Shown here: positions 3,001 to 54,081 of the stretch, piece by piece
Position numbering within the stretch: position 1 is the stretch's first letter
How the letters are laid out: each line of letters begins with the position of its first letter
Assembly: GCA_022821985.1 (NCBI GenBank)
Contig: JAJECP010000011.1
Span: 1 to 64,000 of the forward strand
Direction of reading: 5' to 3'
DNA length: 64,000 nt
DNA from: Acidimicrobiia bacterium
GTDB lineage: Bacteria > Actinomycetota > Acidimicrobiia > Acidimicrobiales > Poriferisodalaceae
Translations under genes and position numbers: made by a program
Notes under the pieces: generated by a model
Database searches by the model: none
Told to the model about the DNA's origin: nothing
Seen by the model: only the letters and a program-made list of their open reading frames with translations

Positions 3001-4540
3001 CCAGCGCCGTCACGATGACCGTGGCCTCGGCGGCCGACTTGTCGGTCGGGGTGCCGGTGAAGGTGAGCCGGCCCTCGGTGCCGTCGGCGGAGTCTCGGTA
3101 GGCGACGCCCTGGGGGCTGCCGTCGAGGGCCAGCTCGAAGTTCGCGCCGAGTTCGAGGTTGGCCGTGTGGGGGGCACCGTTCGAGCCGGTCCAGGTCTCG
3201 GCGCCGCGGAAGCGCAGCGGCACGGTGAGCTGCTCGCCCGCGGCAAGGGGGCGGGCCAGGGTCACCGTGAACTTGGCGGTGTCGTTCGGGTCGGCCTCGG
3301 TGGCCTGGTGATCGGCGGTGCCTGCGGGGCCCAGCGTCACCTTGGTGGGCTCGTCGTCGCCGAACACCTTGATCGGGATGGCGAAGCGGCCCAATTTTCC
3401 GATCAGGGCTGCGTTCGGTGCGGTGGTGTGTTTCTTGTCCGTGTAGTTGTCGGTGATCTCGAACGCGAGAAGGCTGATGGTCCCCTCGAGCACGCCCTCG
3501 TTGTCGACTCCGTTGTCGAAGGCCACCATCTGGAAAGTGACGCTGGCAGGGATGTCGCCGTAGACCGGCTTGTCGCCCGCGTCTGTGCGGCCGTTGTTGT
3601 TGGTGTCTTCGTAGCGCAGCAGCGGGCGGGTGAGCCGGGCCACCTCGCGGTACTGCCTCGACCGTTTGGGGTCGTGAATGCCAGGGTCGCCGCCGACACC
3701 GTGGGCGATCGAGCGCCGGTTCGGATCGAGGAGGTTGCCATGACCGTCCCTCGTGTCGCTGATGGGGCCCGGCTTCACCTTGACCAGCTCGTTGACCCTG
3801 GCCACGATGGCCACGCCGTCGGCCCTGTCGCTGTCGGCGACGCTTTCCATGTCTGCGATCACCGTGCTGTCGAACTCCAGCGTGACGGTGTCGCGGTGGT
3901 CGCGGGAGTCGCTGTTCTGCGTCCGCTCCATCAGCCGCACCGCGTCGCTGTTGATCCGCACCGTGACGCCGCTGTTCGAGAACGATTTGGCGGCGGGCTG
4001 CTCGTTGACGGTGACCGTCCAGTCGGCGACCGCCGCCGCGTCGGTGCAGGTCGTTCCGCCCACGCAGAGCTGCACGCCGAACGTCTCGCTGGTGGTGTCG
4101 CTGTCGCGGCTGACTGTCTGGGTGGTGACCTGGCGGCCCCGCACCGTCTTGGTGGTGGTGGTGATCGTGCCGGCGGCCACCTCGAACTGGATGCGGCCGC
4201 TGCGGATGTTGGGATACACCCGCATGCTGGCGCCGGGCGCCACGGCCTTCTCTCGCCCCCGCTGGTCGCGGGCGGTCACCTTCATGTCGCTGCTGGTGGC
4301 CGTGTAGGGGTCGGCCAGCGGCTTGACCCGCAGGTGGTACTGGTCGGCGTCGGGCAGGTTGGAGATCTCGAAGTAGCGCTCAGTGCCGTCGTCGATCACC
4401 GTGCGGTGCAGGTACGGCACCGTGGAGGTGTCGACGTCGGTCGGCGTCTGCGCCCCGGCCTCGTGCGTGCCGTAGGGCACCACCGCGAGCAGCGAGGCCA
4501 GCAGCAGCACCGCCAGCGCCCCCGCCCCATGCCGCCGCAC
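1..4540 (-). CDS. Giant secreted Calx-beta-repeat surface protein (3' end outside window)
   Basis: The frame is open from a GTG at 4540 to the window edge, giving 1513 residues with no stop. The GTG is preceded by GGGAGGA at a good distance; an in-frame GTG at 4564 lacks this. Residues 1-30 form a signal peptide (basic VRRHG, then a Leu/Ala/Val core, AGA|QT as a likely cleavage site), so the protein is exported. The rest is Thr/Asp/Gly-rich beta-sandwich sequence with repeated DDEPT and DDDD linkers followed by segments of the type EGGSLSFTVTLP, which resemble Calx-beta calcium-binding repeats of bacterial adhesins and S-layer-like proteins. Two Cys occur close together near residue 200 and a few more later. 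No anchor is visible because the C-terminus is missing. The long plus-strand frames lying across it are antisense shadows. Exact domain count is not resolved. Confidence 0.85.
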   Translation of the reverse strand, partial: MRRHGAGALAVLLLASLLAVVPYGTHEAGAQTPTDVDTSTVPYLHRTVIDDGTERYFEISNLPDADQYHLRVKPLADPYTATSSDMKVTARDQRGREKAVAPGASMRVYPNIRSGRIQFEVAAGTITTTTKTVRGRQVTTQTVSRDSDTTSETFGVQLCVGGTTCTDAAAVADWTVTVNEQPAAKSFSNSGVTVRINSDAVRLMERTQNSDSRDHRDTVTLEFDSTVIADMESVADSDRADGVAIVARVNELVKVKPGPISDTRDGHGNLLDPNRRSIAHGVGGDPGIHDPKRSRQYREVARLTRPLLRYEDTNNNGRTDAGDKPVYGDIPASVTFQMVAFDNGVDNEGVLEGTISLLAFEITDNYTDKKHTTAPNAALIGKLGRFAIPIKVFGDDEPTKVTLGPAGTADHQATEADPNDTAKFTVTLARPLAAGEQLTVPLRFRGAETWTGSNGAPHTANLELGANFELALDGSPQGVAYRDSADGTEGRLTFTGTPTDKSAAEATVIVTALADIDRITNRMEVSIPERSDGWLGESNRFGGTLGGGACAGAGCPGHIAGAAEQRSYNIDLLEASPGITLAGQSGALPAAVRLGEDGGSVTYGVRLNTKPLFDVTVTVTSDDTSAARLTSSVSTAATVTGGVALTFTPSNWQTAQNVTVTAQNTAQDEADRTAVITHAANSDHSDYFGLAGPRLTVTAVDDEPTTVTLAGGGAAKAGLSKVMTEGDPSRADVLTVSLSRPLADGEWVRVPLRLESEANGVVVQTVREPRIGANVAFPPQYNDFEMTATEAGATVAHVDRRTPSHTGFRYVELRGPTAGNATATIELRTRAGFDDGEAVDETFSVELADNLAPTVIDGVPTTPPPASNLGGGVEAAGAATEHWYGITDDDDAGLTSAAAGIVPMDWPLLPTGVGPGDSFRLVYVTKGATTGTSTEASYYDSFVRNEIIAGATSDGQSLTSAVDALKPFASMFRAVVSTGAIDENGKVIGQLPRQTIRLAPGASEINDITGAARDHALFRAVNNPTTFAFPEGETHWVNGNLVAVDNAALSGDWANEDKPRHADGTAATVNADGYWTGSSRAGAGYDRAYACRVYVPRNHKSGDGTLTPLPAGEHGRGLMGEAQPRVGYLNKAGVDYNPLGPRDGIHGAPTQDGNADPAGACVGARATEKLPLYALSGLFTVEAGVTVESAAAAEGGSLSFTVTLPTAAPSGGITIPYSFSDGRNVTGDPAPAITTGSSDGTGADYANATGSLRIAQGATTGAITVATTQDSVYESTQYFTVTLGAPTGTDAPSLNPDKSSAVGAITDDDDLPTVSFKSAVVATTEGKADDIAVVVEYPNSGSTLLPISVGYRTENLTAIAGEHYIAAEGVLRFAPGVTERSIRVQSLRDGVPSDVAKSARLHIEQPVHADFGRTRNAVLVISGDTEATAGFWIAGSQSDIGHSIDVPEGESVTLTIGLSTALAADVTIPVRVKSASTTAASGDYALTAADGTALSKTQEFSFAIPAGQLSREF

Positions 4541-9686: not shown

Positions 9687-11270
9687 TTAGGAGGCGACTG
9701 CAGTAGTCGAAGGGCCTTGGGGCGGCAGGCCGATCGGGAAGGCGTCCCGGACAGCGGCGTCGATGGCGGGGCTGATGTGCGACGGCCAGTGGCTCTCGAG
9801 CGTGGCCACCACATGGTCGTGGGCCACATCGTGTGCAGGCCGGCTGCCCGCCTCGGTCCAATCCTCGGGAGTGTCCCGGTTGGACACCAGCGGGTAGAGG
9901 TACTCGGTTTCCATGAGCTCGAGCGTCTGCGGTGAGCCCAGGAAGTGGCCCGGCCCGGCGATGACCTCGCCGATGAGCTCTGCCGACAGCGTGTCGGCGT
10001 TCACCTCGATGCCGCGCACGGTGCGGTTGATGGCGCCGAGCATGTCGTTGTCGATCACCAGCGCCTCGTACGAGCACGCCAGCAGACTCGCCAGCATCCC
10101 CGCCGACTCATAGACGATGTTCGCGCCCGCATGGCCGGCCAGCCCGACATTCAGACCCTTCTCGTAGCCGGCTTGAGCGTCGTTCACCTTGGAGTCGGTC
10201 ATTCCCGCCGCCACGCCGGTGGGCAGCCCGAGCCAGTGGCCGACTTCGGCCGCTGCGGCATTGAGGATTCCCTCCTCGCCCGATCCCCCGCTCATGGCAC
10301 CCGTGCGCAGGTCCGACACGAACGGCCACAGGCCCAGCAGGCAGGGATGGCCCGGCGACAGCAGGTTCACGAAGGTCAACCCCCCGAGACACTCGGCCAC
10401 CGCCTGCGCCAGAGCGCCTGCGAGCGCCGCAGGCGCAGTGGCACCGGCCTGCAGCGCCGACAGCAGGTTGATGGGCATGCCGGTGCGCACCTGCGCGACG
10501 AGGCACCTCGCCGAGTCGTAGGCAAAGCGCAGCGGCGGCACGACGAACGTGTTGTTGGCCGCGATGAACGGACGCTTCGCGAACTCGCCCTCGCCTCCCA
10601 GCACGAGGTCGAACATCTCGACCGACTCGTACACCCACTCCGGCTCGAACCACGACGATCCGCCCGGCTTGGTGGTGCTGCACATCACTGCGTATGCAGT
10701 GGTCATGTCGAGGTCACGGGTCTCGACCATGTCGCGTGCCACCACCGTGCGCACGTAGAAGTGCAGGTTGTCGAGCGTGTCGACCAAGCGGCCGCAGTCG
10801 TACACGTCCTGCGCGAGCGAATCGCGGAACGTGCCGGTCTCGTGGTCGTACATCATCACCGCAGCGCCGGACGTGCCGAAATAGACGTGCTCGCCGCCCA
10901 CGTGCACCGACTGATCGTCGTCGAAGCCGTGCCAGATCCACTCCTTGGCCGCCGTCTCGATGGCGCGTTCCACGACGCCGCGAGGCAGGTGAATGCGTCC
11001 GTTGTCGTCGACCCACCCGCCCACAGGCGTCGCCGCCTCGACGAACTCGTCGAGGGGATCGCCCATGCCGACGTCTTCGAGCAGCCCGAGTGCGGTGTCG
11101 TACACCTGCTGCATGTCGCTCTCGGTCAGCGGTTTGAATCGGCCCGCGGGCAGGCCGGGGCGAACCGGCCTGCGATCGCGCTCAGGTGCTGCTTCGCGGA
11201 CGGCGATGCGGCCGGCTCGGCCGCCGCCGCGGCGCCGGCGGGGTGCCTCGCCGGTGTCGGTCTCGCTCAT
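9687..11270 (-). CDS. Trimethylamine-methyltransferase (MttB) family protein, non-pyrrolysine
   Basis: The 527-residue product matches the MttB superfamily: FKPLTESDMQQVYDTALGLLEDVG near the start, an HGFDD segment, TTKPGGSSWFEP, and Gly/Ala-rich TIM-barrel segments (SGGSGEEGILNAAAAE). No internal amber codon interrupts the frame, so it belongs to the non-Pyl group, some of whose members demethylate quaternary amines such as glycine betaine and pass the methyl group to a corrinoid protein. No corrinoid partner is encoded nearby. Residues 1-40 are Arg/Gly-rich and poorly conserved. Its ATG overlaps the stop of the upstream flavin/folate dehydrogenase by four bases (ATGA), indicating coupled translation and a shared role in methylated-amine breakdown. 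The substrate is inferred, not shown. Confidence 0.85.
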   Translation of the reverse strand: MSETDTGEAPRRRRGGGRAGRIAVREAAPERDRRPVRPGLPAGRFKPLTESDMQQVYDTALGLLEDVGMGDPLDEFVEAATPVGGWVDDNGRIHLPRGVVERAIETAAKEWIWHGFDDDQSVHVGGEHVYFGTSGAAVMMYDHETGTFRDSLAQDVYDCGRLVDTLDNLHFYVRTVVARDMVETRDLDMTTAYAVMCSTTKPGGSSWFEPEWVYESVEMFDLVLGGEGEFAKRPFIAANNTFVVPPLRFAYDSARCLVAQVRTGMPINLLSALQAGATAPAALAGALAQAVAECLGGLTFVNLLSPGHPCLLGLWPFVSDLRTGAMSGGSGEEGILNAAAAEVGHWLGLPTGVAAGMTDSKVNDAQAGYEKGLNVGLAGHAGANIVYESAGMLASLLACSYEALVIDNDMLGAINRTVRGIEVNADTLSAELIGEVIAGPGHFLGSPQTLELMETEYLYPLVSNRDTPEDWTEAGSRPAHDVAHDHVVATLESHWPSHISPAIDAAVRDAFPIGLPPQGPSTTAVAS

Positions 11271-13777
11271 GACCGCAAGCCCCGGTTCTGCGGGTCGTAG
11301 GCCGCCTCAGCGAGCACCGTCGCGGTGCGCCGCTCGCCGAGCAGGTCCAGCTCGAAGGTGCTGCCGGGGGCTTCGAACCGGGGGTCGACGTACACGAAGG
11401 CCAAGCTGCGGCCCACGGTGTGTCCCCAGGCACCGCTTGTGCCGATGCCCATGGGCTCGTCGCTGCCCGGCGCAAAGGCCGGCTCGTTGCCGCGGACGTC
11501 GTTGCCCATCGGACCCATCTCGGTGTCCACCTCGCAGTACACGAGCACCATCGACAGCGCTTCGCCCTGCTGCTCAGACTCCCGGCGAGCCTGTGCCGCG
11601 TCACGTCCGATGAATGAGCGGCTGTAGTCCACGAACCGGCCGAGCCGGGCTTCGACCGGCGTGATCTCGGTGGTGAGCTCGCTGCCCCACGCCTTGTAGG
11701 CCTTCTCGATGCGCATGACGTTCATGGCGTAGCTGCCGAAGTGCACCAGGCCGTGGGGCTCGCCGGCTTCGGCGACTGCGTCATACACGCGGGCCAGATC
11801 GTCCATCGGGCAGTGCAGCTCCCAGCCCAGTTCGCCGACGTAGGACACCCGCAGCGCGATGACGGGCACGCCTGCCACCGAGATCTGCTGGGCAGTCAGC
11901 CAGCTGAATGCGTCGTTGCTGAGGTCGGCGTCGGTCACCGGCGACAGCACGTCACGTGCACGCGGGCCGGTCACCCCCAAGATGGCGGTGCTGTCGGTGG
12001 CGTCGCGCACACTCACCTGCTCGTCGGCCTCGACGTGATCGCGCAGCCAGTCGAGGTCGTGGCTCTGGCCCATGATCGCGGAGGCCAGCCAGAACCGGTC
12101 CGGCGCCAGCCGTGCAATGGTCATCTCGCACTCGATGCCGCCTAGCTCGGTGAGCATGTGCGTCAGGCGGATGCCGCCGTCGCGCCCGGGCAGGCGGTTG
12201 GCTGACAGCCGATCCAGCAGGGCGGCCGCATCGGGCCCGGTCACCTCGAACTTGGCGAAGGCGCTCAGATCGGCCACGCCCACCCGCTCACGAACGCCGC
12301 GCACCTCGGCGCCGACCACGTCGTGCGCATTGGAGCGGCGGAACGAGTGGGCCTCTGGTGTGCCGTCGGGCGAGAAGTACTGGGGGCGCTCCCACCCGTA
12401 GATCTCCTGCCACTGCGCTCCCAGCGCGTCAAAGCGGCCCCACAGCGGCGTGGTCTTGACCGGCCTGCCGGCGTCTCGCTGCTCGCCCGGCAGCCGTACT
12501 TGGTACATCTCGTGATACTCGTCGAGCGCCTTCTCGAGGGCGAACTGCGACTTGGGGCCGGTGTGGTCGCCGAAGCGGCGCGGATCCATGGCGCGCACGT
12601 TGATCTCGGTCTGGCCGTGAACCATCCACTGCGCCAGGAACTTCCCGGCACCCGGGCCTTGGGTGATGCCGATGGATGCCCCGTTGCAGTGCCAGTAGTT
12701 GCGCACCCCCGGTGCGGGCCCCATGAGATAGCCCGAGTCGGGGGTGTGGGTGATCGGCCCGGACACAACTTGCTTGATGCCCGCGTCGGACAGCACGCTG
12801 ATGCGCTGCTGAGCGAAGTCGAGGCATTCTTCGAGTACGTCGAGGTTCTCGCCGGGCAGGTGGAAGTGCAGGTCCCAGTCGATGCCGTCGACGCCGTAGG
12901 ACCGGGAGCCGGACATCTCGTACGGCCCAATGAGCAGGCCATCGATCTCCTGGCGGTAGTAGCACGAGGCGCGGGGATCGCGCACCACTGGCAGTTCGAA
13001 ATCGAGGGCTTCGAGGGCGGGCACGGTCTCGGTCACCAAGTACTGGTGGATGACCGACACGATCGGAACGTCGAGCCCGATCATGGCGCCGAGCTGGGGT
13101 GCGTAGTGCCCGGCGGCGTTCACGACGTGCTCGCAGTGGATGGTGTCCTGCTCGTCGCGGCCGTTCGAACCGTTGCGGCGGCGGGCCGGATCGGCACCGC
13201 CGCGCACGATCGTGACATCCCAGCTGCCGTCGGGGCGCTGGGACATGCCGGTCACGAGCGTGTGGCGCATGATCCGGCAGCCGAGGTCGCGGGCACCCTT
13301 GGCCATGGCGTTCGTGCAGCTCGACGGATCGGTCCAGCCGTCATGGGGTGTGTAGAAGCCGAGTCGCACGTCGTCGAGATCGGTCAGCAGCGGGTGCCGT
13401 TCGGCAATCTCCGCGGGGCCGATCAGATGCGACTCGACGCCGATCTGGGTGAGCATGGCGTGGACGTAGTGGTGCCAGTCGGCCTCGTCGGCCGTGCGCG
13501 CCAATCGGATGGCGCCGCAGCCGTGCCAGCCCGCCGACAGTCCTGTCTCGGCTTCGAGGCGCGGGTAGAGAGCGACCGCCTCCTGGTGCACCTTGGCCAT
13601 GTTGAGATCGCCGATGAAGTTCGGGATCAGGCCGGCCGCGTGCCAAGTGGACCCGGACGTCAGCTCGCCCTTCTCGACGAGGATCGTGTCGGTCCAGCCC
13701 TCATGCGCGAGGGCATACAGCAGGCCGGCCCCCATGGCTCCGCCGCCGATGATGACGCATTGCGCGTGTTCAGGCAT
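11267..13777 (-). CDS. Dimethylglycine/sarcosine dehydrogenase-type FAD oxidase with C-terminal GcvT domain
   Basis: The 836-residue product starts with a Rossmann FAD motif (VIIGGGAMGAG, residues 8-18) and SGSTWHAAG, where His46 is the site of covalent flavin linkage in dimethylglycine and sarcosine dehydrogenases. The DAO domain spans roughly 5-390, followed by an FAO_M linker (about 390-445) and a tetrahydrofolate-binding GcvT domain (about 450-830) with GELGWELHCP and RIEKAYKAWG. The family oxidises N-methyl groups and captures the carbon as 5,10-methylene-tetrahydrofolate. It is first in an operon with the MttB-like gene (four-base overlap), consistent with stepwise demethylation of a betaine-type compound. 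The ATG at 13777 has only a weak upstream purine box. Exact substrate unresolved. Confidence 0.88.
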   Translation of the reverse strand: MPEHAQCVIIGGGAMGAGLLYALAHEGWTDTILVEKGELTSGSTWHAAGLIPNFIGDLNMAKVHQEAVALYPRLEAETGLSAGWHGCGAIRLARTADEADWHHYVHAMLTQIGVESHLIGPAEIAERHPLLTDLDDVRLGFYTPHDGWTDPSSCTNAMAKGARDLGCRIMRHTLVTGMSQRPDGSWDVTIVRGGADPARRRNGSNGRDEQDTIHCEHVVNAAGHYAPQLGAMIGLDVPIVSVIHQYLVTETVPALEALDFELPVVRDPRASCYYRQEIDGLLIGPYEMSGSRSYGVDGIDWDLHFHLPGENLDVLEECLDFAQQRISVLSDAGIKQVVSGPITHTPDSGYLMGPAPGVRNYWHCNGASIGITQGPGAGKFLAQWMVHGQTEINVRAMDPRRFGDHTGPKSQFALEKALDEYHEMYQVRLPGEQRDAGRPVKTTPLWGRFDALGAQWQEIYGWERPQYFSPDGTPEAHSFRRSNAHDVVGAEVRGVRERVGVADLSAFAKFEVTGPDAAALLDRLSANRLPGRDGGIRLTHMLTELGGIECEMTIARLAPDRFWLASAIMGQSHDLDWLRDHVEADEQVSVRDATDSTAILGVTGPRARDVLSPVTDADLSNDAFSWLTAQQISVAGVPVIALRVSYVGELGWELHCPMDDLARVYDAVAEAGEPHGLVHFGSYAMNVMRIEKAYKAWGSELTTEITPVEARLGRFVDYSRSFIGRDAAQARRESEQQGEALSMVLVYCEVDTEMGPMGNDVRGNEPAFAPGSDEPMGIGTSGAWGHTVGRSLAFVYVDPRFEAPGSTFELDLLGERRTATVLAEAAYDPQNRGLRS

Positions 13778-13840
13778 GCTCAGTGATGCCGGGCCTGCTC
13801 AGACATACACAGGTCCCCATTTGTCCAGGCCAAACGTGAG

Positions 13841-13858
13841 CCGAACCCCCCGGTTCGG
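13841..13858. terminator. GC hairpin downstream of minus-strand ATPase gene
   Basis: CCGAACC (13841-13847) pairs with GGTTCGG (13852-13858) over a four-C loop. It lies between the stop of the ATPase (13927) and the start of the dehydrogenase (13777) on the same strand and is followed on the minus strand by a short T-containing stretch (GTTTGG). A second inverted repeat (GGTGCGCG/CGCGCACC, 13879-13910) sits next to it. Likely terminator separating two transcripts. Confidence 0.5.
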
Positions 13859-13926
13859 GCCCCGTGGCATGCCGACATGGTGCGCGCAAATTACCACCGC
13901 TCCGCGCACCACTGCGCGCATTGGGG

Positions 13927-15615
13927 TCAGCTGGATTCAGACGGCGAGTGATATTCCAGCAACGAGGACTGACCAAGCATGGCGACGATCCTCAGGTTGC
14001 GCTCATTGCCGTGGGCATCAACAAGGTTGAGTACCTCGTCGCCAACAGCGAAGTGAACCGGTTGCTGTTGGCCGCCGTTGACAGCGACGTTGGTCGTGTA
14101 GAGGTACGTCGTGCCGTCCCGTTCGAGAATCGGGTTCAGTCGGCCTTCGATGCCCGGCAGTTCTCCGGTCTGATCTTCGAAGATCACCGAGCCGCCGCCG
14201 CTCAGCGGTTCCAGCTCGACACTCAGCGCACCGCTAGCCGGAATCCAGCCCGTCGTGACATGAGCATTCAGACTCGGTCCGGCGACGAACACCGTCATGG
14301 GGAGAGCATCGGTGTACAGGTCGAGCCGTGCCACGCCTCTCGCGTCCGTCGCCGCGCCGCGACGGGTGCCATTGGGGAACAGCACCAAGACGTCGGCATC
14401 GGCGACGGGCGCGCCCTCGCAGCTGACGATCACGGCCGTCTCAGTGTCGAATCGCTCGAGTGCCGACGGAAACTCCCCGAGCGGCACTACCTCGACTTCA
14501 GTCCGTGACTGTGCCTTCTCGCCACCGAAGACGATCATCTGCGCTGTGACGCCGGGCACCGTCTGCGCGACGCGTCGAAGCGGCCGGAACCAATCCTGCG
14601 CCACGGTTGCACCGGACTTCACCTCGATGGCGCAGATGCCGCGCCCTGTCTCATAGAGCAGGTCGCACTCCAGGCCGCCCGACTCGCGGTAGAAGCTGAA
14701 CCGAGGGTGACGACCACGGTTGTAGCTGTACTTGATCGATTCGGCGACGACGATGTTCTCAACGAGTTGACCGCGCAAGGGATGCGTCGCCACCTGACTG
14801 GCATCTCGGATTCCCAGCAGGTAGCTGGCGAGGCCGACATCGTAGAAATAGAGCTTCGGTGACCTCACCAGCCGCTTTCGAATGTTCGCGAAGTACGGCT
14901 CGAGCCGGAACGCGATGTAGCTCCGCTCCAGCACGGCGAGCCAGTGCCGGACGGTGGTGTGCGTCACCCCGAGGTCTTCCCCGAGCGACGACAGGTTCAC
15001 GAGCTGGCCGATCCGCCCCGCGCACAGCGCTGCGAACTGGCGGAACGTCGGGAGATCGCCGACGCCTCCCATCCGACGCACGTCGCGCTCGACGTAGGTG
15101 TCGAAATAGTCGGCGAGCACTTCTCGGGGATCGAGGCCTTGGTCGATAATGCGCGGGTAGAAGCCACTGTGCACCAGTTCGTTCAGCGAATCTGCACCGC
15201 CCGCCCGGCGATGTTCCTCGAAGGAGAAGGGAAGCAGGCGAAGCTGCGCTATCCGTCCGGCCAGAGACTCGCTGATTGCCTCGTTGAGCTTGAAGTTCTC
15301 GCTGCCGGTGAGCACATACTGGCCGTTCGCCCCGCTGTCGTCCGCCAGCTCCTTGAGATACGAGAACAGGAACGGCACATGCTGGACTTCGTCGATCACG
15401 GCAGGCCTGCCGAGATCACGGAGAAACCCTCGTGGATCTCGCTCGGCTTGTCCCCGGACGTCGGGCGCATCCAAGCTGATGTACTTGACGTCAGAGGAGT
15501 CGAACACGGACTGGCAGAGCGTCGTCTTGCCGGACTGCCGCGGCCCGGTCACCGACACGAATGGGTACTGCCCAAACAGACGCAGCAGTCGATCCGCAAT
15601 CTCTCGGCGAATCAT
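13927..15615 (-). CDS. AAA_14/DUF4143 ATPase with unusual C-terminal beta-rich extension
   Basis: Residues 1-390 of this 562-residue product are a standard AAA_14 + DUF4143 protein: Walker A GPRQSGKTT (24-32), Walker B AVIDEVQHVP, YVLTGSENF, SLAGRIAQLRLLPFSF, and the nuclease-like C-part GLECDLLYETGRGICAIEVKSG with the ExK signature. This family is widespread, often horizontally mobile, and of unclear function. The extra 160 residues are not part of the usual family (members are 380-430 residues); they look like a carboxypeptidase-regulatory-type beta sandwich followed by another beta domain (VIFEDQTGELPGIEGRLNPI). ATG 15615 is preferred over 15645 because the family begins close to MIRREIADRLL; the 15645 start would include a palindrome. 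Divergent from the next ATPase. Confidence 0.85.
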   Translation of the reverse strand: MIRREIADRLLRLFGQYPFVSVTGPRQSGKTTLCQSVFDSSDVKYISLDAPDVRGQAERDPRGFLRDLGRPAVIDEVQHVPFLFSYLKELADDSGANGQYVLTGSENFKLNEAISESLAGRIAQLRLLPFSFEEHRRAGGADSLNELVHSGFYPRIIDQGLDPREVLADYFDTYVERDVRRMGGVGDLPTFRQFAALCAGRIGQLVNLSSLGEDLGVTHTTVRHWLAVLERSYIAFRLEPYFANIRKRLVRSPKLYFYDVGLASYLLGIRDASQVATHPLRGQLVENIVVAESIKYSYNRGRHPRFSFYRESGGLECDLLYETGRGICAIEVKSGATVAQDWFRPLRRVAQTVPGVTAQMIVFGGEKAQSRTEVEVVPLGEFPSALERFDTETAVIVSCEGAPVADADVLVLFPNGTRRGAATDARGVARLDLYTDALPMTVFVAGPSLNAHVTTGWIPASGALSVELEPLSGGGSVIFEDQTGELPGIEGRLNPILERDGTTYLYTTNVAVNGGQQQPVHFAVGDEVLNLVDAHGNERNLRIVAMLGQSSLLEYHSPSESS

Positions 15616-46594: not shown

Positions 46595-47053
46595 ATGAGC
46601 GCGCTCGCCGAGGCCAGCTACCTGCCGGAAGGCCTCACCCAGCCTGCTCCGATGCGCGACGGGATGGATGCGCCGTACTGGGAGGGCACTCGCGCGCACG
46701 AGTTGCGAGTGCAGCGCTGCGCCGACTGCGGCACCCACCAATGGGGGCCCGACTGGGTGTGCCATGCCTGCCAGTCGCTCAATGTCGAGTGGGTGACGGT
46801 CGAGCCCACAGCGCGCATCTACTCCTGGCAGCGCGTGCATCACCCGGTGCATCCGGCGCTGGCCGACCACGGCCCGTACATCGTGGTGCTGGTCGAACTG
46901 CCCCACGCCGACAACCTGCGCATGCTCGGCAACCTGCTCGGCGACCCGATGCAGGACATCGTCATAGGCAGCGACGTCGAGGCCGTCTTCGAAGACCACG
47001 ACAACGGCAACCCGCCCTACACCCTCGTCCAGTGGCAGGTCACCAGCAGCTGA
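46595..47053 (+). CDS. DUF35 / OB-fold zinc-ribbon protein, thiolase partner
   Basis: The 152-residue product has a rubredoxin-like zinc ribbon (VQRCADCGTHQWGPDWVCHACQS, four Cys in two CxxC pairs) and an OB-fold C-terminal half (RIYSWQRVHHPVHPALADHGPYIVVLVEL). DUF35 proteins form complexes with SCP2-type thiolases and help bind acyl-CoA or CoA groups. It starts at ATG 46595, 10 bases after the thiolase stop. Expected to act with the upstream gene in retro-aldol or thiolytic cleavage of a lipid or steroid side chain; the exact substrate is unknown. Confidence 0.88.
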   Translation: MSALAEASYLPEGLTQPAPMRDGMDAPYWEGTRAHELRVQRCADCGTHQWGPDWVCHACQSLNVEWVTVEPTARIYSWQRVHHPVHPALADHGPYIVVLVELPHADNLRMLGNLLGDPMQDIVIGSDVEAVFEDHDNGNPPYTLVQWQVTSS

Positions 47054-47059
47054 CGTCCT

Positions 47060-47308
47060 CTATCGATCGGGCATGTGAGTCGCAGATGCAGGATGGACTT
47101 GTAGCTGGGTGTGCTGAGCGAGCGCTGTGAAATCGCGCTCGGCGTTCAGCACCTCTGCGCCGCTCCCGATGGCAATCGCAGCAATGAGGCAGTCGATCAT
47201 GTTGCGCACCGTCGCGCCAGACCGTCGGCACGTTCGGTACAGCAGCGCCGCTCGCTGGCAATCAACTGTTTCCGCCGGTTGGCCGACACTGCCAGCGCGC
47301 TGTGTCAC
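47060..47308 (-). pseudogene. vapC: Truncated VapC-like PIN toxin
   Basis: From a GTG at 47308 that overlaps the vapB stop by four bases, 82 codons encode the C-terminal half of a PIN domain (RNMIDCLIAAIAIGSG, then AEVLNAERDFTAL). The usual VapC is 125-140 residues with an N-terminal catalytic Asp (MIVxDTSVW) and an internal Glu; here the N-terminal half is missing although the coupled start position is kept, suggesting an internal deletion. The usual DxDF near the C-terminus reads ERDF. It is unlikely to be an active ribonuclease. Confidence 0.75.
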
Positions 47309-47514
47309 AGGTGCTCGATGCGGCCTCCACGCGTGGCTTCCAGGTCGCCGTCCCAACCGGTGCCGCGCATGGCGAGTGCTTCTTCGAGCGACATCGGTTC
47401 CTCGGAGGCGAGTTCTAATGCGAAGTTCACCGCAGCCCGCTTGCTGCTGAGTCCATAGCGCTGCATGACACGCATGCACGCCGCCTCGTCGATGTCGATG
47501 TTTGTGCGTGCCAT
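47305..47514 (-). CDS. vapB: VapB-family antitoxin
   Basis: The 69-residue product begins MARTNIDIDEAACMRVMQRY, the ribbon-helix-type DNA-binding start typical of actinobacterial VapB (ARTNIDIDxxL), with AAVNFALELASEEPMSLEEALAMRGTGWDGDLEA following. It should bind and neutralise its toxin and autoregulate the operon. ATG 47514 is preferred over 47571, which adds 19 residues. The downstream toxin is broken, so this antitoxin may be an orphan or may act against other VapC proteins. Confidence 0.85.
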   Translation of the reverse strand: MARTNIDIDEAACMRVMQRYGLSSKRAAVNFALELASEEPMSLEEALAMRGTGWDGDLEATRGGRIEHL

Positions 47515-47911
47515 AGACCAATAGTGCACCAATCTCGCGCGTACCAGACCGAAAAGGCCGCAGTCCTCCACAGCGCTCAGCCCCGCGGGAACAGCGAATC
47601 ACGCCGGATTCGTCGGGGTCGGCCTTGATTGCGCAGAAGCCCACGAGAATTGCGAGCGCTCCACCTCGTGGAGCCCAATGCCGGCGTTCTCATGCGGCGT
47701 GCCCACCAACTCGTCCGCTGCTTGCGCCACTCGGTTGCGGGGCTTAGCCACAGCCACCTCGATCGATGGCGATCTCGCAGCGCTGCTCACACGCGGCGCG
47801 TAGGACCCGGCTCACTGGATCGCGGGATATGAAGGCTGCCGGACAAATAGCGGATGCCACGGATCACATCCACAATCTGTGACAGGGCTCGATCGCTTGG
47901 GAGTGATGGTC
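47515..47911. other. Intergenic stretch without a convincing gene
   Basis: About 400 bases between vapB and the Cys-rich gene. Short frames exist on both strands (for instance 47599-47790 minus, 47629-47832 plus) but lack recognisable motifs. The deleted VapC material is not found here. The stretch just upstream of 47514 must carry the vapBC promoter and presumably an operator. Confidence 0.5.
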
Positions 47912-48241
47912 ATGCGGCGACCAGTAACCGAGCGCAGATGTGACAATTGTCGCTACATGAGACAAGTTCGACGCGAGGACTCGCGATTCGGTTACTTCTC
48001 GCCTGCTGGATCCAGCGAGATGGTGCCGATCTCAGCGCGGACACTCACGATCACCACCTGTCATGAGCAGCAGTTTCCTGAGCCGAGGACCGTCGCGCCA
48101 GAGCACTTCTGTCCCGAGTGGAGGCCCTGTCCTCCTGAGCGGGCGCCACTGCTCACGATGCGTCGCGGCTTGAAGGTCCTGTTCAAGCCGGTGCTGGTCG
48201 TGGCCGAGGCAATCGCATCCCGCGTGGCAGGAAAGACCTGA
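47912..48241 (+). CDS. Small Cys-rich, putative metal-binding protein
   Basis: The 109-residue product has four Cys in a pattern (RRCDNCRYM; ITTCHEQQFPEP; EHFCPEWRPCP) that could bind zinc or an iron-sulfur cluster, followed by a basic C-terminal helix (MRRGLKVLFKPVLVVAEAIASRV). Similar small CxxCxxW...CpeW proteins occur as uncharacterised hypotheticals. ATG 47912 is preceded by GGGAGTG at proper distance, and is preferred over the earlier GTG. It lies 150 bases before the methyltransferase genes, so a link to that system is possible but not shown. Confidence 0.65.
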   Translation: MRRPVTERRCDNCRYMRQVRREDSRFGYFSPAGSSEMVPISARTLTITTCHEQQFPEPRTVAPEHFCPEWRPCPPERAPLLTMRRGLKVLFKPVLVVAEAIASRVAGKT

Positions 48242-48391
48242 ACTCTCCTCAGCGAGCTTTCGTGTCACACCCCTTCGGCATGCTCTGGGTCATGTTCTGG
48301 CATCTGGCGGCATCCTCGGCCCACACTTCGAGGCGTCTTAGGCTTGAACGGGTGCTTGGGCCCTGCTTGAGCGACACGGAGGTGTCGTGCG

Positions 48392-50152
48392 ATGGCTGAT
48401 ACGACCCGGCAGGTTGTGGCACCCGGTAACGCTCAGATGCGGTTCCCGATGACCACGGACATCCGAGGCAGCAAGGGAAGCATCTTCTATAGGGCGCACT
48501 CGTATCACACGAAGGTGCCGGTCGAGAACATCGTGCAGCTCATCGAGCACTACACGGATGTGGGCGATGTGGTGGTCGATCCGTTCTGCGGGTCCGGCCA
48601 AGCAGGTGTGGCTGCGGTGCTCACTGGTCGGCACGCTGTCATCTCGGATTTGTCTCCCGCCGCAGCGCATATCGCACGTGGCTACACAGCGCGCGTCGAC
48701 CCCGTCGGCTTCGATCAGGCCGCTTCGAGACTGCTTGAAGGACTCGCACCGTTGGAGCGGGAGCTGTACGGGGTGCCCGGCGGACGGGTCGAGTACACGG
48801 TCTGGTCTGACGTGTACCGCTGCTCGACGTGCGGGAGCGAAATCCTGTTTTGGGAGGCGGCCGTCGATCACCGGGTTGGTCAGCTGAAGCGCTCGCTCTC
48901 ATGCGCCGCGGGCCACGGACCTTTCGCAAAGACCGATCTCGATTGGCTCGGCTCCCGGCCGGTGCAACGAAACATCAGCATCGACGGTCAGCGAGCCCGT
49001 GAAGTGGAGCCGGTATGTGAGGCGGGAGACGAACCCTTCATCGACCGATCCAGCATTCCCTTTTGGTTCCCGACGGCGCCGTGGGAACGCTGGCGCGAGA
49101 TGTGGCGAGCCCAGCACGACGCGCAAGGAATCGGCACGTCCGCAGACTTCTTCACGAATCGAAACCTCTATGCGCTGGCAGCAATGTGGGACGCGATCAG
49201 ACAAGTCGACGACGAGACGATTCGGGCTGGCCTGCGGTTTGTCTTTACCGCCAGCGTCAATCGAGCGTCCCGCCGGTACCAGTGGCACCCGACGCGCCCG
49301 ACCAACGTCCTGTCATCCACGATGTACCTCGCGTCGCTGAACTACGAGTTCAACGTCTTCAGCCTCTTCCGCCGCAAGCTCTCGACGATCGCTCAGATGT
49401 ATGAGCGGACCTGGCAAGCGCCAGGTTCATGCGAAGTGCATCAGGGCCCCGCCGACAGCCTCGACTGGCTGGTCGACGACGCCGCCGACTACGTGTTCAC
49501 CGATCCTCCGTTCGGCTCCAACATCTTCTACGGCGACTCGTCGTACCTGTGGGAGGCGTGGCTCGGCGAACGGACCGACGTTGCGGCTGAGGCCGTGATC
49601 AACAAGAGGCTGACTGACGAGCTCGGTCGCACAACTCTGGATGGCTACGAGAAGGCGATGAGCCGTGCGATGGAAGAGATCGGCCGCGTACTCCGGCCGG
49701 GTGCGTGGGCTTCGCTGCAATTCCACAACTCCGATGACGCCGTGTGGTCCGCGATCCAGAACGCTGTCGATGCCGCAGGGTTGAGCGTCGAAGCCGCCGT
49801 CGTAATGGACAAGGGCCAGGCATCCTTCAAGGGCATCCGTCACCACCAGCGAGGCGAGAAGGTGGCCAGTTTCGACCTCGTGCTGCACCTCGCTTCGGGA
49901 CCACGAAACGAAACTTGCCCTGAGCGTTACGAGATCGCACGAGCCGACATGCAGCAAATGCTCGAGGCATATGTCGCTCTCGAGCCGCCATCGCGCTGCA
50001 CCACGCCGTGGCTGCATTCCCAAGCGATGCGTCATCTCATCGCGATTGGTGCGTCGCCGGCGGGATGGAGCTTCGCCGCGGTGGAAGCACTGTGCGAAGA
50101 GACTTTTGAGAGGAAGGGCAACTCATGGCACCTGCGAGCAAAGACGGCGTAG
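48392..50152 (+). CDS. DNA methyltransferase 1, Zn-ribbon (COG1743-like)
   Basis: The 586-residue product has methyltransferase motif I VVDPFCGSGQAG (DPFCGSG at 63-69, AdoMet binding) and catalytic motif IV TDPPFGSN (371-374), with the order motif I - middle domain - motif IV. The middle holds a zinc-ribbon-like module (Cys144, Cys147, Cys171, His175) and a long helical part likely to read DNA. DPPF suggests N6-adenine or N4-cytosine methylation. These features fit the Zn-ribbon adenine methylase group (COG1743/DUF1156-like). GGAGG precedes ATG 48392. Its 3' end overlaps the next methyltransferase by 28 bases. Together with the nuclease downstream it forms an operon. Confidence 0.82.
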   Translation: MADTTRQVVAPGNAQMRFPMTTDIRGSKGSIFYRAHSYHTKVPVENIVQLIEHYTDVGDVVVDPFCGSGQAGVAAVLTGRHAVISDLSPAAAHIARGYTARVDPVGFDQAASRLLEGLAPLERELYGVPGGRVEYTVWSDVYRCSTCGSEILFWEAAVDHRVGQLKRSLSCAAGHGPFAKTDLDWLGSRPVQRNISIDGQRAREVEPVCEAGDEPFIDRSSIPFWFPTAPWERWREMWRAQHDAQGIGTSADFFTNRNLYALAAMWDAIRQVDDETIRAGLRFVFTASVNRASRRYQWHPTRPTNVLSSTMYLASLNYEFNVFSLFRRKLSTIAQMYERTWQAPGSCEVHQGPADSLDWLVDDAADYVFTDPPFGSNIFYGDSSYLWEAWLGERTDVAAEAVINKRLTDELGRTTLDGYEKAMSRAMEEIGRVLRPGAWASLQFHNSDDAVWSAIQNAVDAAGLSVEAAVVMDKGQASFKGIRHHQRGEKVASFDLVLHLASGPRNETCPERYEIARADMQQMLEAYVALEPPSRCTTPWLHSQAMRHLIAIGASPAGWSFAAVEALCEETFERKGNSWHLRAKTA

Positions 50153-51891
50153 ACCGACGGCCGTTGGCCGCTCGTCTTCCGCTGCCGAACTACGTCGCTG
50201 GCTCCAAGGGAGGTCCCTGGTACACGGCGCATACCTATCCCACCAAGATTCCGCCGGAAGCCGTCGCTCCGTTTATCGAGGCGTCGACGCTGCCCGATGG
50301 CCTGGTCGCTGACCCGTTCTGCGGGTCCGGGATGACAGGCGTCGCGGCGACGCTGGCAGGCCGCCGAGCGCTGCTGTCTGATCTCTCGCCGGGCGCAGTG
50401 CACCTCGCCCGCAACCACACGCGTCGTGTGTCCGCAGCGTCGCTCCATGAGGCGATCGCGCGGCTTGACAGTGCGTGGATGCTTGACGTCGAGCGCGACC
50501 TGTACTGGTCCTCAGTTGGTACTGAGGACGGAGTCGTCTGCGGGCTGATGAGACACATGGTGTGGTCCGAGGCCTACGAGTGCGCGTCGTGCCGGTCGAC
50601 GGTGGTGCTGTGGGATGTGGCCGAGCCCAACCGGCCGCTCCGACGACAGGTTGACTGCGATATCTGCGGATGGTCGTTTGACCGAACTCGCCGCAGGCCG
50701 GTCGATTCAGTGCCCCGGTGGCTGACTCTCGCACCTGAATCGGGGGGAAAGCTGGTCCAAGGCGATCCGACTGCCGATGCAATCCGGCGGGTCGACGCGA
50801 TCGGGCGCCGACGGCTCAAGCACTGGGTGCCGAGGGTGCGCATCGACTCATCCCGCGAGATGTACATCCGATCTGCTCTTCATCTGCGCGGCGTGCGCAC
50901 GGTTGCAGACATGTTCGCTCATCGCCCCAAAGTCGCGCTGTCTCGCTTGTGGCACGAGATCGGTCTCATCACGGATGCAGCCGTGAGAGAGGCCCTGCAA
51001 TTCGCGTTCACCAACACGGCTTGGCATGCCAGCCGCATGCGGCGCTACAACGCGAAGGGTGGCCAGCGCCCGCTGACAGGCACCCTGTTCATCCCGCAGC
51101 TGGTTTCGGAACCCAACATTTTCGAGGTCTTCCGTCACCAGGTCCGCCAAGTCTGCCGGTTGTATGAAGCGCTCCCCGACGGCGATGTCGAGGTAGCTCA
51201 GTCATCTGCGACAGACCTTCGTTGGGTCGCCGACTGTTCCGTGGACTACGTGTTCACGGATCCACCCTTCGGCAACAACATCCACTACGCCGACTGCAAC
51301 ATCGTCTGGGAAGCGTGGCTGGGCAACCCGACCGATCACGACCAAGAAATTGTCGTGAACAAGTCACGCAGCGCAACGGATGGCGGCAAGACGCTCGCTG
51401 ACTACCAGCGACTGCTCACAGATTCGTTCCGTGAAGCGAAGAGGGTCGTGGTCGACGGCGGACGCATCTCGGTGGTCTTTCACAACTCTGACGACGCGGT
51501 ATGGACTGCACTTCTCGATGCCGTTGAGGACGCCGGCCTGCACCAAGCAGAGGTGTCGATACTCGACAAGGGCCAACGAAGCCAGAAGGGCTACAAGGCC
51601 AGACGGGGCGAACTCGTGCCGTTCTACGACCTCGTCATGACCTTTGACAAGGCGAATCGAAACACACCAAGACTGAACGGCGCCGGCGAGATGGCGCTCG
51701 ACGCCGTCATGGCGCATCTCGAAAGCCTCGACGGCAAGCCCTCCCAAGCACGCCACCTCGACTACCTGTACTCCGTCGCCGTGGGCGCAGTGATCGGTGG
51801 CGGCGCACGGCCGATCGGGCTTTCGTTGCGAGCATTCGAGCGGATGTGCAATGAACGCTTCGAACGAATCGGAGACTCGTTCCACCTATAG
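50125..51891 (+). CDS. DNA methyltransferase 2, Zn-ribbon paralogue
   Basis: The 588-residue product is a paralogue of the preceding protein with the same layout: DPFCGSG at 63-69, two CxxC pairs (Cys153/156 and Cys178/181) forming a full zinc ribbon, and TDPPFGNN (379-382). N-termini align (GSKGxxxYxAHxYxTKxP), as do C-terminal blocks (VVFHNSDDAVWTALLDAVEDAG versus QFHNSDDAVWSA). The recognition region between them differs, so the two probably methylate different strands or sites. ATG 50125 follows GGAAGGG and overlaps the first gene by 28 bases. Two methyltransferases for one nuclease would suit an asymmetric recognition sequence; this is inference. Confidence 0.82.
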   Translation: MAPASKDGVDRRPLAARLPLPNYVAGSKGGPWYTAHTYPTKIPPEAVAPFIEASTLPDGLVADPFCGSGMTGVAATLAGRRALLSDLSPGAVHLARNHTRRVSAASLHEAIARLDSAWMLDVERDLYWSSVGTEDGVVCGLMRHMVWSEAYECASCRSTVVLWDVAEPNRPLRRQVDCDICGWSFDRTRRRPVDSVPRWLTLAPESGGKLVQGDPTADAIRRVDAIGRRRLKHWVPRVRIDSSREMYIRSALHLRGVRTVADMFAHRPKVALSRLWHEIGLITDAAVREALQFAFTNTAWHASRMRRYNAKGGQRPLTGTLFIPQLVSEPNIFEVFRHQVRQVCRLYEALPDGDVEVAQSSATDLRWVADCSVDYVFTDPPFGNNIHYADCNIVWEAWLGNPTDHDQEIVVNKSRSATDGGKTLADYQRLLTDSFREAKRVVVDGGRISVVFHNSDDAVWTALLDAVEDAGLHQAEVSILDKGQRSQKGYKARRGELVPFYDLVMTFDKANRNTPRLNGAGEMALDAVMAHLESLDGKPSQARHLDYLYSVAVGAVIGGGARPIGLSLRAFERMCNERFERIGDSFHL

Positions 51892-51913
51892 GTGCCGAGA
51901 GAGAGGTGAAGCG

Positions 51914-52909
51914 ATGGCCAGCCTGCTAACGAAATCGGAGCTTCACGACCGGTTCCTCGCAGCGGTCGGCGGCGGTGCTGTGGTCTCCCACACAACCGAC
52001 GCCGCAGGCGAACTTGTGGTCGAGCTTCAACCGCCGCTGCCTCGCCGAGTTCGCGTCTACATCTACAACGCCACCAACCCGTCGGGCGGCCGCTCCACGC
52101 CCGAGCACAAGATTCAACTCATCCTCGCTGACCAAGGCAGAGGCCAGCGTGCCAACTTCGACCGATACGAGGTCGATTTCGTGCTGTTGTGCGGCTACGT
52201 CCCGGAGCAGGACGTCTTCGTGTTCTGGGATGCGTCCCTGCACCGGGACTTCGCATACTCGAAGAACCTGCAGGTGCGGTCCGAGAACGTTGCCGGTGCC
52301 GCTGCTGCCGGAGTCACGGTGCGCCAGGAGCGGAGCTTGCGCACCGACCCCGAAACCGTCCTATGCGCACCGAGTCGACTCGTCACGGAGGCGATCGCCG
52401 AACGGTTCGCGAGTCCGATCCTCGTTCCCCAAGGAGTAGGTGCCGAAGCTTCGAACGGCCAGCCCTACATGCGTCCACCGCGCAGCGGAAGCGGAGAGTC
52501 GGCACTGCGCGTGTTCAGCGTTGACCCAGATGCCGTCGACCGAGGAACGAATGCGCACAAAGACGTGCAAGATCGGCTCGCCGATGCGATCTCGGCTCGG
52601 GGATGGGAACCGCTCTCTCCCGGCGGCTCCGATCCGCTCTTCGACATCGGCTGGATCGTGACGGATACAGCGTGGATTGCCGAAGTCAAGAGCCTCACGG
52701 AATCCAATGAGGACCGACAGCTTCGATTGGGCCTCGGGCAGGTACTCAGCTACGCGTACCTGATCGATTGGGGCGTAGCGGCGTATCGGCCTGTCCTGGC
52801 AGTCGAGCGCAAGCCGTCCTCTTCGTACTGGCCTGATCTCTGTGCGTCACACGGTGTGAAGCTCTCCTGGCCCGAAACCTTCGAAGAGATGCTCGACAAC
52901 TGCACTTGA
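51914..52909 (+). CDS. PD-(D/E)XK restriction endonuclease candidate
   Basis: The 331-residue product follows the methyltransferases by 22 bases with GAGAGGTGA before ATG 51914. The C-terminal domain has a PD-(D/E)XK core: Asp244 in DPLFDIGW and Glu257-x-Lys259 in WIAEVKS, followed by QLRLGLGQVLSYAY, a typical nuclease helix. The N-terminal half (residues 20-165) has LPRRVRVYIYNATNPSGGR, HKIQLILADQ, then VDFVLLCGYVPEQDVFVFWD, resembling the DNA-recognition part of some type II or methyl-dependent nucleases. Position after two methylases makes a cognate restriction enzyme the best reading. Whether it cuts unmethylated or modified DNA cannot be told. Confidence 0.78.
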   Translation: MASLLTKSELHDRFLAAVGGGAVVSHTTDAAGELVVELQPPLPRRVRVYIYNATNPSGGRSTPEHKIQLILADQGRGQRANFDRYEVDFVLLCGYVPEQDVFVFWDASLHRDFAYSKNLQVRSENVAGAAAAGVTVRQERSLRTDPETVLCAPSRLVTEAIAERFASPILVPQGVGAEASNGQPYMRPPRSGSGESALRVFSVDPDAVDRGTNAHKDVQDRLADAISARGWEPLSPGGSDPLFDIGWIVTDTAWIAEVKSLTESNEDRQLRLGLGQVLSYAYLIDWGVAAYRPVLAVERKPSSSYWPDLCASHGVKLSWPETFEEMLDNCT

Positions 52910-52936
52910 CCGGCCGTAGATGGGCTTGGCCCCACG

Positions 52937-53584
52937 ATGCCGCGCAATACTGGCGTGATGCCTGATGCTCGGGGGTCACGGAGCGGCGAGCGGCCCCGCC
53001 GGAATGGCGAGGCAGGCTTGAAGCCTCGCCGACCGCCGTGGTCGATCAGCGGCGTGGTCCTGATCCGGCTCGTGACGAGCCAGGTATTCCTGATCGCGTT
53101 GGTGGTGTGGAGCTTTATGTGGGTCACCGTCGGCGCCAGCTGGGCACCACCGCTGTTCATCGTCGCCGTCATCGCCTTGGCGATCCGCAGGGGGCTCAAC
53201 GAGCGACGCCGGGGACGTCACGGGGCCGAATCCGCACGCCGTTCGCCTCGCGGCAATCCTCGGCCTCGACCTGTACGCGGCCACCGCGACCTCGATGACG
53301 ACTGGGACCCGGACGAGCTGGACTCAGAAGGCTGGAACGCGGACGACGAAGGGGACGAGATCGAGGAGCACTGGGACGACGACTGGGACGATCGTCCGCG
53401 CTCACGGCCACGCAGGTACTGGACCCGTCGCCCCGCTTGGTGGGATGACACCGACGATGATGACGACGCCGATGCCGACTGGGACAACGGCTGGGGCGAC
53501 GACGAGGTCAGCCGACGGCCGCGGCGCAGGCACCGCTCGGACTCATGGGCGTCTGACGCCTGGGACGACGACGACTACATCTGA
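52937..53584 (+). CDS. Membrane protein with acidic Trp/Asp-rich cytoplasmic tail
   Basis: The 215-residue product has a basic N-terminus, a hydrophobic hairpin of two transmembrane helices (about 40-57 and 62-80), a basic ERRRGRHG stretch and then a 120-residue tail dominated by DDDWDxD and WDD motifs alternating with Arg clusters. No family recognised. ATG 52937 or ATG 52958 could be the start; neither has a good ribosome binding site. It follows the nuclease by 27 bases and could be in its operon or independent. The tail might interact with positively charged partners. Confidence 0.6.
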   Translation: MPRNTGVMPDARGSRSGERPRRNGEAGLKPRRPPWSISGVVLIRLVTSQVFLIALVVWSFMWVTVGASWAPPLFIVAVIALAIRRGLNERRRGRHGAESARRSPRGNPRPRPVRGHRDLDDDWDPDELDSEGWNADDEGDEIEEHWDDDWDDRPRSRPRRYWTRRPAWWDDTDDDDDADADWDNGWGDDEVSRRPRRRHRSDSWASDAWDDDDYI

Positions 53585-53673
53585 CCTGCCGCACCGGCCA
53601 AGCCGGCTGGGCACAGCGCCCTCACGCCGCGTGCGGCTAGGGCTGAGCGACTGCTACACGCATCCGCGGCGGG

Positions 53674-54081
53674 TCAGCCGTGCTTGTCGGGGCCGGCCTT
53701 GGTGATGTGGAAGCGGACGAGGCAGCGCTTGTCCTCCACCATTGCGCGGCGGTAGTCGTCCCAGTCGGGGTGCTCGCCCTGCAGCGTCCGGTAGTACTCC
53801 ACCAGCGGGTCCAGCGCAGCCTCGCCGGAGATGATCTCGGCCTGACACTCGAGCTGGACCCAGCGGCCCAGCCATTTCTCGGGGAACACGCACAGCCACG
53901 ACTGCGGGTCGCGATGCAGGTTCTTGACCTTGAATGCCGTGTCCCGGGTGCTCATCACCACCGTGTCGTCGACGACGGCCAACGTGACCGGCGACAGCTG
54001 CGGCGTGCCGTCGCGTGCCTTGGTGGCCAGCACAGCGCGGTCGTTCTTGCGCACGTAGTCGAGTGCCTTCGAGATCTCCAT
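53674..54081 (-). CDS. PPOX-class, F420/FMN-type flavin-binding protein
   Basis: The 135-residue product is a split-barrel protein of the pyridoxamine 5'-phosphate oxidase superfamily: MEISKALDYVRKNDRAVLATKARDGTPQLSPVTLAVVDDTVVMSTRDTAFKVKNLHRDP, the start typical of F420-dependent PPOX-class proteins, then WVQLECQAEIISG and EYYRTLQGEHPDWDDYRRAM. Such proteins reduce diverse substrates with F420H2 or store biliverdin/flavin. GAGG precedes ATG 54081. It is next to the divergent LLM-type F420 enzyme (starts 174 bases apart), supporting an F420-linked function. Confidence 0.85.
   Translation of the reverse strand: MEISKALDYVRKNDRAVLATKARDGTPQLSPVTLAVVDDTVVMSTRDTAFKVKNLHRDPQSWLCVFPEKWLGRWVQLECQAEIISGEAALDPLVEYYRTLQGEHPDWDDYRRAMVEDKRCLVRFHITKAGPDKHG

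Follow-up and report, generated by a model that had tools for sequence, protein, structure and literature searches.

Methylases that accompany the MTaX1 domain are described, in PMC10853773, from systems built on a CxC ABC ATPase, DndE and an HKD-SF2 helicase (PbeABCD), and PMC12839542 presents type 3 bacteriophage exclusion (BREX) and DUF1156 methylases as N6-methyltransferases whose target domain is inserted after strand 2. Here we describe three adjacent genes, M1, M2 and R, in a stretch of 64,000 nucleotides (the window; positions 1 to 64,000, forward strand, of contig JAJECP010000011.1, assembly GCA_022821985.1) from an Acidimicrobiia bacterium of the Poriferisodalaceae. We suggest, at a probability of about 0.68, that the three genes form a compact restriction-modification system, type II-like and directed at an asymmetric DNA site. 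Our literature search found no paper on the M1-M2-R operon, which the source paper of PMC10853773 (Krishnan 2020) may show; in a search for MTaX1 only PMC10853773 bore on the operon, and the function of that domain is only predicted, as far as the search shows. The genes and the parts of R are listed below (window positions, strand, description and basis).

48392..50152, + strand: M1, a DNA amino-methyltransferase of 586 residues with motif I (DPFCGSG), a Zn-ribbon region and motif IV (TDPPF); profile matches, alignment and tree.
50125..51891, + strand: M2, a methyltransferase of 588 residues paralogous to M1, with the same motifs; profile matches, alignment and tree.
51914..52909, + strand: R, whole gene, starting at ATG 51914; 331 residues.
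51914..52411, + strand: N-terminal MTaX1 domain of R, residues 1-166; match to PF20296 (69.5 bits over residues 45-152) and AlphaFold model.
52412..52510, + strand: fast-evolving linker of R, about residues 167-199; predicted local distance difference test (pLDDT) 27-62 and a raised ratio of nonsynonymous to synonymous change (dN/dS).
52511..52909, + strand: C-terminal domain of R, a predicted PD-(D/E)XK nuclease, XisH-like, with D244, E257-x-K259 and Q276; alignment, weak profile matches, AlphaFold and Foldseek.

The reading frames of M1 and M2 share 28 bases, a gap of 22 bases separates M2 from R, and the R start codon is preceded by a purine-rich stretch resembling a ribosome site; our open-reading-frame check thus returned the same coordinates, overlap and gap as the preliminary description of this DNA, and the three genes are a single operon. 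Wherever R was found at full length it lay directly 3' of open M1 and M2 frames (10 of 10 genomes: the window, L033 and L045-L052; loci carry L numbers here and genomes G numbers), and the refuting case named in the preliminary description, a third gene that never accompanies the methylases, did not arise. R orthologues are 45-96% identical to it, and their frame is open in nine other genomes. The unit is uncommon: among 198 genomes of the taxonomic order, four matched R, two of them at full length. A sample of the phylum yielded MTaX1 in six of 396 genomes at E <= 0.001, five above the Pfam cut-off and a sixth (G448) below it; three of the five (G000, the window's own genome, G034 and G518) have M1-M2 in front, and in G284 an MTaX1-HNH protein stands behind a single methylase recognised by eye. 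The PADLOC type II methylase profile PDLC03312 matched 11 of the 396 genomes at E <= 1e-20, as an adjacent methylase pair in three, all with R, and within a single frame in each of the other eight. A scan of named genomes gave 10 loci from 42 pattern matches, eight of them from Acidimicrobiia or Acidimicrobiaceae bins with the order M1-M2-R; the remaining two come from Sphingomonas hankookensis and from a gammaproteobacterial bin in which a methylase, recognised by eye, accompanies an MTaX1-HNH protein. We take L049, L045 and L046 to be the same contigs as the copies in G034, G573 and G571.

Selection on the unit was gauged by NG86 from the window against L045, L046, L047, L048 and L050, giving dN/dS values, which carry no significance test, of 0.12-0.19 for M1, 0.09-0.15 for M2 and 0.10-0.15 for R. 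The nuclease domain of R gave 0.04-0.13 in the four of five comparisons that could be computed, and the linker 0.26-0.54 against L045, L047 and L050 and 0.10 against L046 (not computable against L048); some C-terminal parts of the methylases are laxer, reaching 0.84 in M2 against the near-identical L045. By these ratios R is under purifying selection, and conservation and dN/dS both argue against R as an unknown or chance open reading frame, a reading that we rejected.

The C-terminal domain of R is a predicted PD-(D/E)XK nuclease, with XisH as its nearest neighbour by weak profile matches and fold. All 13 nuclease domains in an alignment that reaches down to 30% identity keep D244, E257 and K259. 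Because the nuclease half was of low confidence in the full-length AlphaFold model, the domain was modelled alone (pLDDT 86.2, pTM 0.80); the model places the D and the ExK on adjacent strands of the core fold, with strands 49-53 and 56-63 bearing D48, E61 and K63, in the model's own numbering, at or beside them. Foldseek returned one match to this model at E <= 0.001, Cdn1 (Cdn1/Card1), and further matches that include Hjc, XisH, HindIII, EndoMS, N.BspD6I and PaqCI, all of which we take to be PD-(D/E)XK enzymes. AlphaFold and Foldseek thus bear out, as a prediction, the nuclease fold first proposed for the third gene. A sequence search of PDB with R gave no match at E <= 10, and in a profile search of PDB the XisH structures 2inb and 2okf headed the list (E 0.055-0.066). 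Weak matches to the XisH profile (PF08814) occur in five of nine scanned proteins that bear the domain (L036, L005, L033, L082 and L083), at 15.7-20.9 bits, below the cut-off of 25; a score above that cut-off was reached neither by R nor by its eight scanned relatives, three of which had no match. PMC1189080 counts XisH among the known PD-(D/E)XK members. Profile scans of R found no ATPase domain.

The same 130 C-terminal residues recur behind other N-termini (L036, L005, L037, L003, L082 and L083). In L036 the N-terminus is weakly BRCT-like (below cut-off), in L005 it is SRA-like (E 0.0038, below cut-off), and no family was assigned to it in L037, L003, L082 or L083. L082 is a viral contig on which the XisH-like domain and its N-terminus occupy 2809-3612, next to an open reading frame that by eye resembles a DNA adenine methylase. 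Scanning viral contigs with R itself found no relative, and M2 gave no phage match at E <= 1e-5.

At its other end R carries a known Pfam domain, MTaX1 (PF20296; 69.5 bits over residues 45-152 against a gathering cut-off of 25), and the earlier view of an N-terminus unlike that of common restriction enzymes is replaced by this assignment. In the full-length AlphaFold model, ten-residue blocks over residues 1-160 have pLDDT 72-94, and the blocks from 161 to 200 fall in the low range listed for the linker. Thirteen aligned MTaX1 rows, 19-77% identical to the domain in the window, have two invariant and six nearly invariant columns. Foldseek of the full R model against PDB gave no match at E <= 0.001, and no PADLOC model matched R at E <= 1.

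Over 579 aligned columns the identity of M1 to M2 is 36% (E 7e-112). Both match Pfam N6_N4_Mtase, and both have DPFCGSG and TDPPF, so that the S-adenosylmethionine (SAM) and catalytic motifs are intact; the two paralogous methyltransferases recognised at the outset are confirmed. An alignment of eight methylases, comprising three tandem pairs and two single enzymes, shows no variation in TDPPF, in GSG within motif I or in three zinc-region cysteines (C144, C147 and C171, M1 numbering); the fourth zinc ligand is variable. The best PADLOC profile for both is PDLC03312 (MTase_II, 1344 positions): M1 fits its first half (184-558; 506 bits) and M2 its second (773-1292; 481 bits). Next comes the BREX-3 methylase PglXI, at 315 bits for M1 and 275 for M2, and both are related to this type 3 BREX enzyme. 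The label COG1743-like, which is linked to DUF1156, is roughly right in kind, but Pfam DUF1156 gave no match to M1 or M2 at E <= 1 and PglXI scores far higher than the DUF1156 models, among which NF042963 matched in part (45.8 bits for M1 and 39.3 for M2, cut-off 1000). The order of motifs in M1 and M2 is consistent with the position of the target domain, after strand 2, in PMC12839542.

A methylase tree (midpoint root; long branches flagged for both halves of L053 and for L038 and L039) sets nine M1-type and nine M2-type rows on opposite sides of one branch with support 91/89, and in 200 of 200 bootstrap trees the type needs a single change. Both halves of a fused methylase from Sphingomonas hankookensis (L053) and the plasmid-borne pairs described below obey the split, and M1 and M2 lie outside the clade of single long methylases. 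Since the two types fall on the two sides of one branch across effector types, it appears that the pair either split before meeting these effectors or travelled as a pair.

A three-gene system of restriction-modification type, with two paralogous methylases and a nuclease, as the preliminary description had it, is supported by the constant gene order, by the fold predicted for the nuclease and by the signs of purifying selection. M1 and M2 would each methylate one strand of an asymmetric site, probably at an amino group, N6-adenine being more likely than N4-cytosine because of the kinship to BREX-3 PglXI. R would bind DNA through MTaX1, telling unmodified from modified sites, and its XisH-like domain would cut unmodified DNA, with phage restriction as the likely outcome. 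The SRA-like N-terminus on the same nuclease domain in L005, though weak, argues for MTaX1 as the DNA reader.

Several observations weigh against this proposal. The Foldseek scores are moderate, with TM-scores by query of about 0.3-0.6, and XisH gave no match at E <= 1 in R, one of four of the nine scanned domain proteins without a match (with L037, L003 and the R of L052). MTaX1 found no fold match, so that its role as a DNA reader draws on the literature and on indirect evidence. The methylases named from related loci in PMC10853773 are N4-cytosine and cytosine-5 enzymes, which runs counter to N6-adenine. The tree also puts a single methylase, L038, with the M1-type rows, and the pair is thus not the sole descendant of that branch; G309, the last of the five phylum-sample genomes above the MTaX1 cut-off, has an MTaX1 protein with no recognised methylase among five scanned neighbours. 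Finally, in five of eight Acidimicrobiia loci R stands beside Pbe genes or their remains, and it may have evolved within a larger machine.

The eight loci differ in the Pbe module beside the unit, which is intact in two, broken in two, a fragment in one and not seen in three. In L047 and L050 a small protein, PbeC, PbeA and a second MTaX1 protein lie just behind R and convergent with it, with PbeA and PbeC open and full-length (691 bits for PbeA and 731 bits for PbeC in L047). PbeA of L051 is split in two, and L052 has a single frame of 869 residues that joins parts of PbeA and PbeC, with no second MTaX1 protein seen; all that L049 retains is a match of 38 residues to the small protein. The contigs that show breaks in L051, L052 and G574 are drafts, and some of these breaks may be assembly errors. 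No Pbe trace was found at E <= 1e-4 in L045, L046, L048 or L033, the flank available after R being 2.9 kb in L045, 4.3 kb in L046 and 1.3 kb in L049; a longer stretch from L045's genome (G573; L078) follows the window as far as 55834 and shows no Pbe. The 64-kb window likewise gave no tblastn match at E <= 1e-4 to PbeA, PbeC or the small protein of L047 or L053, and the reading of the window as a Pbe system was rejected for want of any Pbe gene. Every locus has open M1, M2 and R frames, including those with a broken Pbe module, and this pattern suggests that the Pbe side has been lost while the unit was kept; loss is favoured because a gain of Pbe would explain L047 and L050 but not the fragments.

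The second MTaX1 protein of the module (9996-11078, - strand, in L047; also in L050 and L051) has an N-terminus that in L047 matches PADLOC PDC-S02, and two different MTaX1 proteins thus lie within 6 kb. No family matched the small protein next to PbeC, and a DndE-like name for it would rest on position. A distant PbeA-like helicase part occurs elsewhere in the window's genome (G000 contig 31, 122129-123373; 39% over residues 266-681).

Other effectors accompany the methylase pair outside the Acidimicrobiia. In Sphingomonas hankookensis a fused methylase of 1262 residues is followed by a protein with helix-turn-helix and MTaX1 parts, PbeA, PbeC, the small protein and a second MTaX1 protein; one MTaX1 protein of this locus (13235-14269) has a C-terminus that by eye is hydrophobic and helical, a possible membrane effector. 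Plasmids of Paenarthrobacter, Arthrobacter and Pseudarthrobacter carry an M1-M2-like pair (51% to M2; five of 14 plasmid records at E <= 1e-20). In two plasmid loci, from which the order is taken, the pair is followed by a protein of about 265 residues, an AAA family ATPase and a protein of 668 residues; profile scans of L090 identified the first as MTaX1 (44.6 bits) and the second as AAA_5 with a weak McrB match, and found no family for the third, which by eye has a DPK stretch, a candidate nuclease motif. On a Haloglomus plasmid (L002, 7986-11743) an MTaX1-like protein annotated as an HNH endonuclease lies between DUF499 and DUF1156 genes, an arrangement resembling the BREX-related loci in PMC12839542.

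By homology, M1-M2 with MTaX1 recurs with three effectors, namely the fused nuclease, the PbeA/PbeC module and a weakly McrB-like ATPase. It is possible, if on balance unlikely, that the pair and MTaX1 form a stable core into which unrelated effectors are plugged, namely a methylation code written on two strands together with a reader or adapter of its own; the window would then hold the minimal stand-alone form, whose Pbe partner was lost in the lineage or never joined. Loci with intact, broken and missing Pbe allow a test of whether one methylation code can serve both a large, ATP-driven defence machine and a small restriction enzyme.

The recurrence of MTaX1 also bears on a reading to which we give limited credence, in which the domain is a docking adapter by which R, or another effector, is held to the methylase pair; the methylases' target domains would find the site and R would cut on meeting it unmodified. 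MTaX1 does recur with unlike methylases (the tandem pair, a gene annotated DUF1156 in L002, and what by eye are single methylases of L034 and L054), its effectors are just as varied (XisH-like, HNH, PbeA/PbeC and AAA_5), and its two invariant and six near-invariant columns count on the same side, but the 19-77% identity of its rows would also suit a diverging DNA-binding domain, and the SRA-like partner of the nuclease domain in L005 favours a reader of DNA. That same partner is what would speak for R as a modification-dependent, type IV-like cutter of foreign-marked DNA beside methylases that mainly regulate genes or mark plasmid or phage DNA. We regard this as the least probable reading: full-length R occurred without M1-M2 in none of the 10 genomes, and type IV enzymes need no cognate methylase pair. 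Very unlikely too is that R is a leftover accessory of a Pbe-type system (CxC ABC ATPase, PbeA helicase), with no restriction of its own and a relic in the window. Open, full-length PbeA and PbeC beside R in L047 and L050 point that way, as do the CxC/DndE systems with methylases and MTaX1 in PMC10853773; against it, M1, M2 and R stay open where Pbe leaves no trace (the window, L045, L048, L033 and the 4.3 kb after R in L046), R has a dN/dS of 0.10-0.15 in all five comparisons, and the breaks seen in L051, L052 and L049 lie on the Pbe side.

The unit is variably placed within the genus, being absent from some genomes and located elsewhere in others, which counts in favour of the proposed restriction-modification role. 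In a DNA search of the genus, in which 27 of about 170-220 candidates were scored per genome, three of 11 genomes had the full unit (G000, G571 and G573) and one (G574) a broken copy; the other seven had no scored match longer than 70 bases within the unit. Two stretches bear on its placement:

48257..52914, strand unspecified: unit common to the window and contig 68 of G571, at 89% DNA identity; the window's site is empty on G571 contig 33.
47535..52934, strand unspecified: stretch missing from the same-genus genome G100, which has 17 bases between the two flanks.

The copy in G571 has different flanks, and a longer stretch (about 47053-53674) is missing from G570, G059 and G571 contig 33. 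The G574 copy has neither M1 nor the beginning of M2 and also lacks about 200 bases from the region of R that encodes MTaX1, a joint loss that would be expected if R without methylases were harmful (one case, from one bin).

Upstream of the operon, on the - strand, a VapB-like antitoxin frame (47305-47571, within 47060-47571) is followed by the tail of a PIN-type toxin, both labelled by eye; in G573 (L078) about 100 bases are missing between the two pieces that match 47060-47571. A stretch of 148 bases (47653-47800) recurs in the window's genome and in other genomes of the genus at 73-78% identity; it had no Rfam family at gathering score, and neither an attachment site nor a clear gene was resolved in it. 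An Rfam scan of 46900-53800 found no family at gathering scores.

Compared with described systems, the operon in the window has the features of type II restriction-modification: intact SAM and catalytic motifs in the methylases and a linked predicted nuclease with conserved catalytic residues and no ATPase domain. Type II systems with two or fused methylases and one nuclease (MhoVII, HgaI-like) resemble it in having two methylase activities and a nuclease, which fits an asymmetric site, whereas R in the window combines MTaX1 with an XisH-like domain; the likeness is by description and not by nuclease sequence. PDLC03312 already covers M1 and M2 as its two halves, which here are separate genes, and says nothing of a nuclease. 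With the PbeABCD systems the operon shares MTaX1, and its relatives in L047, L050 and L053 have PbeA- and PbeC-like genes beside or within the locus, whereas the window has neither gene nor the small partner nearby and fuses its MTaX1 to a predicted PD-(D/E)XK nuclease. The BREX-3 methylases PglXI/BrxXI and the DUF1156 methylases, as treated in PMC12839542, are kin by the PglXI profile (a Roseomonas BREX-3 methylase is a 28% match), but M1 and M2 differ in being a tandem pair, shorter, outside the clade of single long methylases and without DUF1156. XisH (PF08814; 2inb, 2okf) is a nuclease-fold neighbour of the R C-terminus, below the Pfam cut-off in the five matching relatives and without a match in R. 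The role of XisH itself is excision control. The defence system that the preliminary description called undescribed is thus new in its combination and context but not in its parts, MTaX1 being a known domain and the methylases already profiled: what appears new, by these comparisons, is the combination of known families, the stand-alone nuclease that joins MTaX1 to an XisH-like domain, and the way effectors are exchanged while the methylase pair stays the same. At 331 residues, with no ATPase domain and with its methylases adjacent, R is a simple case for finding out what MTaX1 reads.

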